Position numbers and translations under genes: made by a program
From: Xanthomonas arboricola
GTDB taxonomy: Bacteria; Pseudomonadota; Gammaproteobacteria; Xanthomonadales; Xanthomonadaceae
Assembly: GCF_002940665.1 (NCBI RefSeq)
Contig: NZ_MIGY01000001.1
Location: 1,054,001 to 1,118,000 of the forward strand
Reading direction: 5' to 3'
DNA: 64,000 nucleotides
Shown here: in pieces, positions 14,218 through 47,256 of the stretch
How positions within the stretch are numbered: the stretch's first letter is position 1
Layout: each line of letters begins with the position of its first letter
Notes under the pieces: model-generated
Databases searched by the model: none
Told to the model about the DNA's origin: nothing
The model's input: the letters and a program-made list of their open reading frames with translations, nothing else

Positions 14218-14303
14218 GGGGATTCGGGAGTCGGGATTGGGGATTCGTCACAGCCAAAGCGCCTTGCCGTTGCTCTGGCGAATCCCAAATCCCGAATCCC
14301 CAA
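14218..14303. repeat. Inverted pair of G-run repeats after the DMT transporter gene
   Basis: A G-rich copy (14218-14247, GGGATTCGGGA...GGGGATTCG) and its near reverse complement (14279-14303) can fold into a long hairpin. The second copy directly abuts the stop codon of the gene at 14304-15200, with the G-rich strand as that gene's mRNA strand. It belongs to the dispersed family also found at 31997, 37159, 37597, 40981, 45516 and 55541. Confidence 0.8.
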
Positions 14304-40980: not shown

Positions 40981-41010
40981 GCGATTCCCCAATCCCCAAT
41001 CCCGATTCCC
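40981..41010 (-). repeat. G-run repeat directly after the antiporter gene
   Basis: On the minus strand it reads GGGAATCGGGATTGGGGATT then GGGGAATC, starting six bases after the stop of the antiporter gene. It is another member of the family at 14218. Confidence 0.8.
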
Positions 41011-44023: not shown

Positions 44024-44051
44024 TGCGCGTGCACTTGCACGCGCATTTTTT
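44024..44051 (+). terminator. Strong rho-independent terminator
   Basis: A 9-bp stem TGCGCGTGC / GCACGCGCA with an ACTT loop is followed by six T. It ends plus-strand transcription, from fasciclin or from a small RNA, and its T run overlaps the stop codon of the converging udgX-like gene. Confidence 0.92.
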
Positions 44052-45492
44052 ATCTACTCGCCATGCGCTGATCTGCAGCGATCGGTGCATCCAGCAACTG
44101 GCGCAGGTCCTCGACAAATCCGCGGTAGCCTTCCTCGCGCGCGGCCTCCGAGCCTTGCCGCAACACCCAGGAGGGATGCACGGTGGCCAGCACCGGCGTG
44201 CCGTCGTCCAGCCGCTGCCACTGGCCGCGCTGCTGCATCAAGCGGAAGCCGTTTCCCAACACCGCCTGTGCGGCGGTTGCGCCCAGGCACACGATCTGCG
44301 CCGGACGCAGCTGCGCGCGTTCGGCATGCAACCAGCCACTGCAGGCTTGCACATGCGACCGTTCCGGATTGCGATGCAGCCGCCGCTTGCCGCGCTGCTC
44401 GAAACGGAAATGCTTGACCGCATTGGTCACGTAGACCGTGGCGCGGTCGACGCCGATCTCGCCCAGCGCCATGTTGAACAAACGCCCGGCCGGCCCGACG
44501 AACGGACGCCCGCTCAGATCCTCTTCGTCGCCGGGCTGCTCGCCGATCACCATCACCGACGCGTCGCTCGGTCCTTCGCCGAATACCGTCTGCGTTGCCG
44601 GTTGCCATAACGCGCAGCGCCGGCAATCGCGCGCGGCCACGCGCAACTGCGCCAGGTTTTGCGTGACCACTTCCGGGGTCGGCGGCGGCGCCGCCGGCAC
44701 TCGCCGCCTCACCGGTTCGGGCGCACGCTCGGCCATCTCGCGCACGCGCACACCCGCCTCGCGGATCAGCTCCGGCAACAGGCTCGCCTCGGGCAGGTTC
44801 TTCCAGTATTTCTGCGGCATTTCCTGCCGCATCATGGTCGGGTTGAGTCGCGCCGGATTGAAGATATGCGCGTAATAGGTACGCCAGAGCATCTCCTGCG
44901 CATCGTCGGCCGGCACCTGAGTGCGCACGGCGCCTTCGCCGAACGTCAACGCCTCGCCGTCCCAGCGCACGCTGCGATATGGGGTGAGGATCGCCCAGCG
45001 CATGCCGGCGAAGCGGCGCGCGAAAAACGGCGCCACCCGATCCACGATCCAATGTTCGGGCTCGAACCACGCCACGAAGTCTTCCTCTTGCACCGGCAAA
45101 CGCCGAAAGCGTACGAACGCCTTCATCTTGTGGGTGTCGCGCTGCACCGCCTTTTGCCACTGCGTCACCCGATGCACGTCGACATCGGTGGCCCGCTCCA
45201 GCAGCGCGCGTTCCCCGCACGCCACCCGCCACAACAACCGGTACAGCACCGCGTAGCGCTGCGGATCGCGGTGACACAACACCGCCCCCGCCATCTGCAG
45301 GAACTGCGCCGATACCCGCGGCGGCGCAGCCACGGCCGGCAAATCCGGCAGCCCCTGCCCCATCAACAAGCCGCCCTGCGCTCCGCCATTCCACGCGATG
45401 GCGTCGGGCTCCACCTGCGCGCACCAGCCCGCCCGCGCCAGCGCACGCCATGCTTCAAGGCTCCAACCCGGCTCGACGTCAGCGTTGTACAT
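44050..45492 (-). CDS. DUF4130-UdgX family uracil-DNA-binding/repair protein
   Basis: This 480-residue protein joins two domains. The N-terminal part (about 60-260) is DUF4130-like (RLLWRVACGERALLERATDV; QREMPQKYWKNLP in variant form). The C-terminal 190 residues form a UDG-superfamily domain: motif A GEQPGDEEDLSGRPFVGPAG (317-336), KRRLH (369-373) and HPSWVLR (439-445). In UdgX the KRRIH histidine forms a covalent bond with deoxyuridine in DNA; here H373 is kept, with Leu for Ile. The expected role is to trap or excise uracil in DNA. A radical-SAM gene lies upstream in the same direction. Confidence 0.9.
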   Translation of the reverse strand: MYNADVEPGWSLEAWRALARAGWCAQVEPDAIAWNGGAQGGLLMGQGLPDLPAVAAPPRVSAQFLQMAGAVLCHRDPQRYAVLYRLLWRVACGERALLERATDVDVHRVTQWQKAVQRDTHKMKAFVRFRRLPVQEEDFVAWFEPEHWIVDRVAPFFARRFAGMRWAILTPYRSVRWDGEALTFGEGAVRTQVPADDAQEMLWRTYYAHIFNPARLNPTMMRQEMPQKYWKNLPEASLLPELIREAGVRVREMAERAPEPVRRRVPAAPPPTPEVVTQNLAQLRVAARDCRRCALWQPATQTVFGEGPSDASVMVIGEQPGDEEDLSGRPFVGPAGRLFNMALGEIGVDRATVYVTNAVKHFRFEQRGKRRLHRNPERSHVQACSGWLHAERAQLRPAQIVCLGATAAQAVLGNGFRLMQQRGQWQRLDDGTPVLATVHPSWVLRQGSEAAREEGYRGFVEDLRQLLDAPIAADQRMASR

Positions 45493-45515
45493 CGCGGTGG
45501 TCAGGATTGCAGAGG

Positions 45516-45546
45516 TGGGAGTGGGGATTGGGAATTGGGGATTCGC
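45516..45546 (+). repeat. G-run repeat upstream of the udgX-like gene
   Basis: The sequence GGGAGTGGGGATTGGGAATT followed by GGGGATTCG is a member of the G-run family, but here it lies in the 202-base gap between the radical-SAM and udgX-like genes, with the C-rich strand on their transcript. It is not beside a stop codon on the G-rich strand. Confidence 0.75.
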
Positions 45547-45694
45547 AAGGCGTCGTGTTCCTGTGTCAGCACTGGTGTTCGGTGGCAGCTTCGCGCCTGA
45601 TGCGCCCCTTATCCGCGCTTCGGGCAGCTTGCCCGGCAACAGGGAGAGGCCAGCGGAAGCGGTGGGGCGCCGATGCCGGCGGCCAGCTGCGGTT

Positions 45695-46939
45695 TCAATC
45701 GAACAGACTCGCCTGCCTGGGCGCCGGCGCCAATTGCGCGCGCAACCGCACCGGATCGTCCAGGCGCTGGCGCGGATGATGATCCAGCACGCTCACAAAC
45801 GGCAGCAGCTTCTTCATCGGCACCCGCAACCGCGCCAGGTCCCCCACCCGCAACCGCGCATGCCGGCGCGACAACAACAGGCGCTCCACATTGCGCGTGC
45901 CCAGGCCTGGCACCCGCAGCAGCATCTCGCGCGGCGCCGCGTTCAGATCCACCGGAAAACGCTCCGGATTGCGTAGCGCCCATGCCAGCTTCGGATCCAC
46001 GTCCAGATCGAGCATGCCGCTGGACTGCGCCGGTGCGATCTCCTCCACGCTGAACGCGTAGAAGCGCAGTAACCAGTCGGCCTGATACAGCCGGTGCTCA
46101 CGCTGCAACGGCGGTGCCTGCAGCGGCAATTTGGACGAGGCATCCGGGATCGGGCTGAAGGCCGAGTAGTACACCCGGCGCATCCGGTAATTGCCATAGA
46201 GATTGTGGCTGGTGTCCAGGATGCTGCGGTCGTTGGCATCGTCGGCGCCGACAATCATCTGCGTGCTCTGGCCAGCCGGCGCAAAGCGCGGCGGCTTGGC
46301 GCGGCGCAGCTTTTCGGCCTTGCGCTCCAGCTGGTTTTCTTCGATGCGCCAACGCAACTCGCCCATTGCCGAACGGATGCCGCCGACACTTTTCTCCGGC
46401 GCCAGCAACGTCAATCCCTGCTCGGTCGGCAGCTCCACGTTGATGCTCAACCGGTCGGCATAGCGGCCGGCGGCGGCCAACAATTCCGGCGATGCATCGG
46501 GGATGGTCTTGAGGTGGATGTAGCCGGCGAAGTGATGCACCTCGCGCAGCTGCCGCGCCACCTCCACCAGCTGCTCCATCGTGTAATCGGAGTTGCGGAT
46601 GATGCCGCTGGACAGGAACAGGCCTTCAATGTAATTGCGCTTGTAGAAGTCCAGCGTCAGCGTGACCACTTCTTCCGGCGTGAAGCGCGCACGGCGCACG
46701 TTGCTGGATACGCGGTTGACGCAATACGCGCAATCGAACACGCAGAAATTGGTGAGCAGGATCTTCAACAGCGACACGCAGCGGCCGTCGGGCGTGTACG
46801 AGTGGCAGATGCCCATGCCCTCGGTGCTACCGATCCCACCGGTGCCGAGCGAATTGCGCTTGTTCGCGCCGCTGGAGGCGCAGGACGCGTCGTATTTGGC
46901 CGCATCGGCCAGCACTGCGAGTTTGTCGAGGATTTTCAC
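45695..46939 (-). CDS. Putative DNA modification/repair radical SAM protein
   Basis: This 414-residue protein has a radical SAM core with C66-x3-C70-x2-C73 (NFCVFDCAYCVNR) for the 4Fe-4S cluster, preceded by GIGSTEGMGICHSYTPDGRC. The barrel continues with GLFLSSGIIRNSDYTMEQLV and RLSINVELPTEQGL. The C-terminus has a helix-hairpin-helix (330-359, LLRVPGLGTRNVERLLLSRR), a DNA-contact motif. It belongs to the family regularly found next to UdgX/DUF4130, thought to act on DNA, but its reaction is unknown. GTG at 46939 is used as start. Confidence 0.9.
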   Translation of the reverse strand: MKILDKLAVLADAAKYDASCASSGANKRNSLGTGGIGSTEGMGICHSYTPDGRCVSLLKILLTNFCVFDCAYCVNRVSSNVRRARFTPEEVVTLTLDFYKRNYIEGLFLSSGIIRNSDYTMEQLVEVARQLREVHHFAGYIHLKTIPDASPELLAAAGRYADRLSINVELPTEQGLTLLAPEKSVGGIRSAMGELRWRIEENQLERKAEKLRRAKPPRFAPAGQSTQMIVGADDANDRSILDTSHNLYGNYRMRRVYYSAFSPIPDASSKLPLQAPPLQREHRLYQADWLLRFYAFSVEEIAPAQSSGMLDLDVDPKLAWALRNPERFPVDLNAAPREMLLRVPGLGTRNVERLLLSRRHARLRVGDLARLRVPMKKLLPFVSVLDHHPRQRLDDPVRLRAQLAPAPRQASLFD

Positions 46940-47256
46940 GCAAGCAGCATGTCGCGAAGGCGTCTCAGCCTGTGAGACTGCACGGCACTTCATCGTGAAT
47001 GCTTCAGAGCGCTGCGCTGCCGGCCCTTGCGGGCAGCATGCCTTGTCGCTGCGGGTCGGTGTGCCGTAGGTACCAGGCCGTATCGCCATGGGTCTTGCCT
47101 GGTGTAGCCATTGCACCACAGCGGTTTGCAGCGGCAGTAACTGGCCACATGCCATGGCTTGCAGGCGGCTGGGCAGTGCCTCGGGATTGCGGGGCCGGCA
47201 TGCCGCCTGCACCGTCGATGACAGCGACGGTGCAGGCGTGCTGCGATCGCCTGGAC
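46940..47256. other. Gap between the radical SAM and ygiD genes
   Basis: These 317 bases carry a 13-bp hairpin at 47205-47237 (listed separately) and no credible gene. The radical-SAM promoter should lie near 46950-47100, but no -10/-35 pair is convincing. Confidence 0.4.
47205..47237 (-). terminator. Hairpin ending the doxX-ygiD operon
   Basis: A perfect 13-bp stem GCCTGCACCGTCG / CGACGGTGCAGGC with a seven-base loop lies 20 bases past the ygiD stop. There is no T run after it, so termination is likely but may need Rho. Confidence 0.55.

Follow-up and report, generated by a model that had tools for sequence, protein, structure and literature searches.

The question raised by this locus was what a radical S-adenosylmethionine (rSAM) protein does when its gene precedes that of a UdgX-type uracil-DNA glycosylase (UDG). 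Two such genes lie on the minus strand of a 64-kb stretch of Xanthomonas arboricola DNA (contig NZ_MIGY01000001.1, positions 1,054,001 to 1,118,000; hereafter the window, whose positions are used as coordinates throughout). The upstream gene (45695..46939; GTG start) encodes a 414-aa rSAM protein of family TIGR03916, and the downstream gene (44050..45492) encodes a 480-aa fusion, from the ATG at 45492, of a DUF4130 domain with a UdgX domain. The initial annotation had reported both genes on one strand, and they were found there with family scores far beyond chance; it had proposed that rSAM acts on the adduct which UdgX forms covalently with DNA, repairing or releasing it, or that it makes a modified base for UdgX to read. 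The present analysis did not support that role as the core job of rSAM. By near-strict co-occurrence and adjacency, rSAM and DUF4130 are one functional unit; DUF4130 is the constant partner of rSAM, and UdgX, because it was repeatedly absent, appears to be an optional module. We lean slightly towards a DNA-damage-inducible, sliding-clamp-tethered repair pair of rSAM and DUF4130, with UdgX as a detachable covalent anchor at uracil and abasic (AP) sites.

Occurrence was surveyed in 150 Pseudomonadota genomes at curated cut-offs, with sub-cut-off matches excluded from the counts. rSAM was above its cut-off in 22 genomes and DUF4130 in the identical 22 (Fisher p = 7.6e-27, kinship uncorrected). 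UdgX was above its cut-off in 21 genomes, of which 17 were common with rSAM (17/22 vs. 4/128). The linkage across genomes called for by the initial annotation was thus far beyond chance. Five genomes had rSAM and DUF4130 without UdgX above the cut-off (G074, G099, G023, G082 and G046), one of which, G099, had a 110-bit TIGR03914 match. Four had UdgX without rSAM (G055, G051, G071 and G139); among these were one stand-alone frame of 212 aa and one genome with a broken DUF4130 remnant. The remnant, in G071 (L052/L061), comprised the last 50 DUF4130 positions with an internal stop codon, directly upstream of UdgX, so that the pair was seemingly lost and UdgX kept. Weak sub-cut-off matches were obtained for rSAM-like proteins in 5 genomes, DUF4130 in 1 and TIGR03914 in 98, the last taken as other UDGs. 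One genome with the fused operon also had a second UdgX above the cut-off, in a 221-aa frame (G043:C890:29941-30513).

Among 80 named loci of the genome-contig collection (the best 80 of 590 confirmed), DUF4130 followed rSAM on the same strand in 79, and the remaining locus had only 80 bp of room. From the rSAM stop codon to the DUF4130 match the median distance was about 12 bp, and the gap was 100 bp or less in 71/79 loci. UdgX was present in 64/80 loci, always in the same open reading frame (ORF) as DUF4130 (64/64), and absent in 15, of which 12 had room for it; it was missing from the operon in 12/76 scorable loci. A search of the 12 genomes with UdgX-less loci found UdgX above the cut-off elsewhere in 2 and in none of the other 10; cut-off aside, all 12 held some TIGR03914 match.

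The pair was also found, with no UdgX, in the fetched flanks of Spirosoma (Bacteroidota), Fusobacterium, Acetoanaerobium (Clostridia), Acinetobacter and two faecal contigs, and a control genome, Bacteroides ihuae, matched rSAM and DUF4130 and not UdgX. Another control genome, Caulobacter vibrioides, gave matches to all three families, though not necessarily above every cut-off. The two faecal contigs came from 10 records labelled as phage, of which 8 were unannotated faecal contigs and 2 were named Acinetobacter phage MD-2021a. For the Bacteroidota example the published label of a uracil-DNA glycosylase system is a poor one, because the partner in this locus (L164) was DUF4130 and no UDG domain was found in its flanks. 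An rSAM tree with 132 rows, of which 103 had UdgX and 29 had not, required 14 changes of the UdgX label, at least 10 of them forced by well supported branches. This was a quick LG+G4 tree with long outer branches, made without the loci lacking downstream room and without L001, L163 and L167; for L002 and L014 the label UdgX-less was taken from the search of whole genomes. The seven distant rows were all without UdgX, so that one gain followed by many losses would be the simplest account, the root not being inferred.

The 150 bp before rSAM were scanned for LexA-type boxes at 78 loci (2/80 were without room). The alphaproteobacterial LexA box (GTTC-N7-GTTC or its complement) was present in 59/78 loci vs. 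19/492 control upstreams, and a strict CTG-type box in 9/78 vs. 1/492; 68/78 loci carried one or the other. Two further types were tried and rejected, namely the Firmicutes-type box (2/78 vs. 12/2662 background windows) and the TTA-N6-TACTA type (0/78 vs. 1/2662). Over 200 bp upstream in 21 whole-genome loci, 15 had the alphaproteobacterial box, 4 others CTG-N10-CAG, 1 a GTCTCA-N5-TGAGAC palindrome and 1 none. A LexA-type box was also present in 9/12 UdgX-less loci with room (L086, L096, L104, L110, L127, L130, L137, L139 and L152). The rSAM is presumably COG4277. In Bacteroidetes, a COG1573-COG4277 operon is reported to be under SOS control in the portion of PMC8565304 used here, which also cites Verrucomicrobia and Alphaproteobacteria.

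The rSAM of the window carried QASLF at residues 409-413 of 414 (45701..45715, minus strand), one residue before the stop codon, which is a motif of the type that binds the sliding clamp, DnaN. Tails were compared in 110 of 111 rSAM proteins; the cut L163 was left out, and L013, the copy from the window's own genome, was represented by the window. Within the last 40 residues, 102/110 had a penta- or hexapeptide clamp pattern, which in 70 stood right at the C-terminal end, vs. a mean of 4.1 and a maximum of 11 in shuffled tails and 7/432 in other ORFs of the same loci. The narrow pattern Q[LM]x[LF][FL] occurred in 72/110 tails (shuffle mean 1.1; control ORFs 3/432). C-terminal residues were typically QLSLF and close variants, and the 8 tails without a match still had the glutamine and kept to the pattern for the most part (QGSLF, QRSLF, QLSIF and similar). 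The part of PMC3716654 drawn on gives QL[S/D]LF as the clamp-binding consensus and the C-terminus as its more usual position. By this resemblance, the tail of rSAM is predicted to bind DnaN. A literature search, judged partly from titles and abstract openings, found no paper, among those listed, joining radical SAM with a sliding-clamp motif.

The rest of the rSAM protein agreed with the initial annotation, which had described a radical-SAM enzyme with CX3CX2C and a C-terminal helix-hairpin-helix (HhH). It scored 559.6 bits against TIGR03916 (curated cut-off 343.5), and its closest named relative among the matches listed was that of X. dyei (97% identity). The cluster motif (C66/C70/C73; 46721..46744, minus strand) was invariant in 47/47 proteins and in 14/14 of a set with distant members. 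Three further cysteines of the N-terminal segment (C20/C45/C54; 46778..46882, minus strand), conserved in 47/47 and in 13/14 of the distant set, are possible ligands of an auxiliary cluster or metal. The distant member without them was that of Gemmatirosa (L167), which also had no DUF4130 in its flanks. This Gemmatirosa protein (L167 4836-6026) had about 35-37% identity and kept the HhH and a QLSLW tail; it is perhaps of a sister family. The HhH DNA-binding element of the window protein (about residues 327-372; 45824..45961, minus strand) matched ComEA and RuvA, and a profile search backed it (2duy, which is ComEA-related, E 6e-5). DNA, the substrate to which the initial annotation had pointed, is the likely one by the HhH, the LexA-type boxes, the clamp-type tail and the mutasome neighbours described below. 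The SplB family was absent among rSAM matches at E up to 0.01 in the family-model scan, and a spore photoproduct lyase (SPL) structure was absent at E up to 1 with the single sequence and up to 0.1 with a profile. Because rSAM matched no SPL model or structure at these thresholds, the term SplB-like would describe a functional analogy only.

In the fusion, DUF4130 (residues 11-236; 44785..45462, minus strand) scored 219.4 bits against TIGR03915 (cut-off 112.25) and 140.6 bits against Pfam DUF4130 (cut-off 27); Pfam UDG was matched as well. Its most conserved residues across phyla included H121, R128, F129, E144, R160, W203, Y206 and R215. A designed protein, the one PDB match of DUF4130 (E 0.06), was dismissed as meaningless. 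In two Acetobacteraceae, Pararoseomonas and an uncultured relative (L087 and L116), DUF4130 was matched in two pieces, which suggests an internal insertion. The longest ORF of the fusion opens at a TTG at 45639, and domain homology begins only behind the ATG at 45492; H373 as numbered in the initial annotation was correct from that ATG. The gap from rSAM to the fusion gene is 202 bp and holds a repeat of the CCCAATCCC type (45522..45545, minus strand), which the long ORF takes into its extra 5' stretch. With up to 3 mismatches, this short repeat had three sites in the window (45522-45545, 14279-14302 and 40982-41005; 0 expected).

The UdgX domain (residues 238-465; 44098..44781, minus strand) scored 318.8 bits against TIGR03914 (cut-off 189.95) and matched solved UdgX chains (E about 1e-58). 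As initially annotated, it retained motif A GEQPGDEED (44518..44544; E318, Q319, D322 and D325, equivalent to E52, Q53, D56 and D59 of Mycobacterium smegmatis UdgX), the R-loop KRRLH with R371 (R107) and the cross-linking-type H373 (H109) (44374..44388), and motif B HPSWVLR with H439 (H178) (44158..44178), all on the minus strand. Residues were tabulated in M. smegmatis numbering for 97 full fused domains, 6/103 having been dropped as cut by locus ends. The equivalents of E52, D56, F65, N91, R107 and H109 were identical in 97/97, those of Q53 and K94 in 96/97, of D59 in 94/97, and of H178 in 95/97 with 2 gaps. When these residues are mutated, excision or cross-linking is impaired or lost, according to the part of PMC10776899 relied on. 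By analogy with UdgX, the domain should excise uracil and bind the abasic site covalently through H373, and the competence claimed for this histidine is sound as far as sequence can tell, the set of excision and cross-linking residues being intact. About 12/97 fused domains, seen in L043 and L045, were without the Fe-S-type cysteines (C290, C293 and C384 of the window); they had Y or A at the C384 position and retained the active-site residues.

Homologues of imuA and imuB flanked the operon in 10/80 loci, and in three Sphingomonadales loci (L138, L142 and L151) the order on one strand was imuA-imuB-rSAM-fusion-dnaE2. With one representative of each scanned, ImuA was below the cut-off, ImuB was recognised via a weak Pol IV match only, and DnaE2 was clear. 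DnaE2 was above its cut-off in 17/22 rSAM genomes vs. 31/128 others (p = 3e-6, kinship uncorrected). Replacement of Ung by the system was considered and rejected, Ung being present in 12/22 rSAM genomes vs. 49/128 others (p = 0.17). There were 18 recurrent flank clusters; the 5 representatives scanned were ImuA, ImuB, DnaE2, one dehydrogenase subunit and one without a family. Some of the remaining clusters looked by eye like wrong-frame ORFs.

Upstream of rSAM the window has a previously undescribed palindrome, GTCTCA-N5-TGAGAC (46962..46978, without strand), operator-like, where relatives have a LexA box. It was also present in 18/29 Xanthomonadaceae loci, mostly about 39 bp before the rSAM start and with free spacer letters, and was missing in 11/29. 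The 4.75-Mb host genome had three perfect copies. The second adjoined the start of a MrfA/Hrq1-type helicase gene and was flanked on the far side by a gene that looked PAQR-like by eye; the third was 255 bp upstream of a SRAP gene. Eight other genomes had 19 perfect copies, 8 of them at rSAM, and 9 of the other 11 were inspected: 5 stood before helicases of the same kind, 3 preceded mraZ by about 150-240 bp, and 1 (L214) was not assigned. Those 5 helicases were cut by locus ends, and the MrfA zinc domain was seen in the host copy only. Each of the nine genomes had 1-3 perfect copies (loci L172, L173, L210, L212, L216, L217 and L219-L222). The genes with the palindrome are a possible small DNA-damage regulon. 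As a Xanthomonas LexA site the palindrome was ruled out: it was absent from both host lexA promoters examined, of which that of lexA1 carries TTAGTAGTAATACTACTAA and the other a different palindrome.

In the mechanism towards which we lean, the operon would be induced by DNA damage, the HhH would hold rSAM on DNA, and the C-terminal clamp-type tail would bring it to replicating or repair-synthesis DNA. Together with DUF4130, rSAM would then most likely perform radical chemistry on a damaged nucleotide, so that a lesion which the replication and translesion machinery had run into would be repaired directly or processed. The fused UdgX would anchor DUF4130 and its rSAM partner at uracil or AP sites, or shield such sites, as a module added to a system working without it. 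A narrower form is put forward tentatively, as possible and open to considerable doubt: a replisome-coupled, clamp-tethered rSAM, with DUF4130 as a novel type of partner, would use radical chemistry to repair a lesion or a cross-link at an abasic site, with UdgX covalently parking the enzyme at uracil-derived AP sites.

Several observations weigh against a damage-inducible, clamp-tethered repair pair. Many loci were close relatives, so the counts are not independent. The rSAM promoter of the window itself was without any LexA box of the types scanned. The strict CTG box was defined once the first matches had been seen, and the loose CTG-N10-CAG was weakly enriched (13/78 vs. 243/2662 background windows), so that the CTG evidence lies in the strict form and its position near the start. 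The clamp patterns were chosen and widened after the tails had been seen, and none of the 10 neighbouring ImuB proteins taken as positive controls had the pattern near its C-terminus, the one match among them being internal. DUF4130 had no meaningful solved relative in the PDB profile search, and, rSAM having no SPL match, direct reversal is argued from context. Finally, in viral contig L001, one of two loci (one of them cut) from the scans of viral contigs, the 777 bp that follow rSAM held no DUF4130. An ORF that looked hemerythrin-like by eye (L001 7210-7995) stood after rSAM in its place.

Other explanations divide the labour differently. Resolution of the UdgX-DNA adduct by rSAM with DUF4130, or production of a base read by UdgX, would make a single uracil pathway of the operon, as the initial annotation had it; the strong association of UdgX with rSAM (17/22 vs. 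4/128), its fusion to the constant rSAM partner in all 64 named loci with UdgX and its nearly invariant active site are as expected under this proposal. It was nevertheless judged the least probable, since UdgX was missing in 5/22 rSAM genomes (at the cut-off) and 12/76 loci, since the pair occurred in flanks from Bacteroidota, Fusobacteriota and Clostridia without it, and since 4/150 genomes had UdgX without rSAM; in addition, RecA-dependent routes or proteases are proposed for resolving the mycobacterial UdgX adduct in the section of PMC10359453 consulted. A role of rSAM on the adduct confined to the fused lineages is possible. SOS-controlled base excision at uracil or AP sites after error-prone polymerases, with UdgX as the main enzyme and rSAM and DUF4130 as accessories, would agree with the mutasome neighbours and with the published SOS regulation of COG1573-COG4277 (PMC8565304, in the portion used). 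Wild-type UdgX traps, and release of the AP product was not seen in the part of PMC10776899 relied on; Ung was undepleted in rSAM genomes (12/22 vs. 49/128) and present in the host; and LexA-type boxes were retained by UdgX-less loci. We regard this explanation as unlikely.

To DNA modification instead of repair, in which the pair would install or remove a modified base, as the NCBIfam wording allows, we give a similarly low probability. rSAM chemistry suits C-H functionalisation. DUF4130 was earlier placed in this network by Aravind and colleagues, who suggested that it may modify thymines (PMC3765255, in the passage drawn on). Damage-type promoters and a clamp-type tail would suit repair better than constitutive marking, and no base-modification gene was recognised in the recurrent flank clusters (5/18 representatives scanned).

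The clamp-tethered repair pair was compared with known systems. NCBIfam names TIGR03916 rSAM_link_UDG ("putative DNA modification/repair radical SAM protein"), TIGR03915 SAM_7_link_chp and TIGR03914 UdgX family; the linkage stands in these names, so the association of the three families was already known, as the initial annotation had said. The operon is of this known two-gene type, whose function is uncharacterised in the family catalogues: genes, order and fusion were the same here as in these families and the COG1573-COG4277 SOS operon, all above curated cut-offs. What differs from the published linked operon is that UdgX was seen here to be something the system can do without, unlike DUF4130, and that rSAM had a clamp-type tail. 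The window domain had motifs A and B, the R-loop KRR[I/L]H and the residues tested for excision and cross-linking in common with M. smegmatis UdgX. The latter stands alone and has KRRIH, whereas the window domain is fused to DUF4130 and has KRRLH. SRAP/HMCES (YedK), which shields AP sites covalently, is a functional parallel to UdgX; it belongs to a different Pfam family (PF02586) and lies outside this operon, the SRAP gene being near another palindrome copy of the host. SplB (spore photoproduct lyase) is likewise a radical SAM protein acting on DNA. It is SOS-regulated in several species according to the same portion of PMC8565304. Unlike SplB, the window rSAM has an HhH, extra cysteines and a clamp-type tail, and no SplB/SPL match.

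The catalogues assign no function to these linked families, and the literature on COG4277, DUF4130, PF13566 and TIGR03916 appears sparse. The question shifts to what rSAM and DUF4130 do to damaged DNA in the presence of the clamp and the absence of UdgX. Should the tail bind DnaN, radical-SAM chemistry would be linked to the replication machinery, and there would be a hint as to why UdgX, a suicidal uracil trap, stays fused to a second domain with its active site intact.

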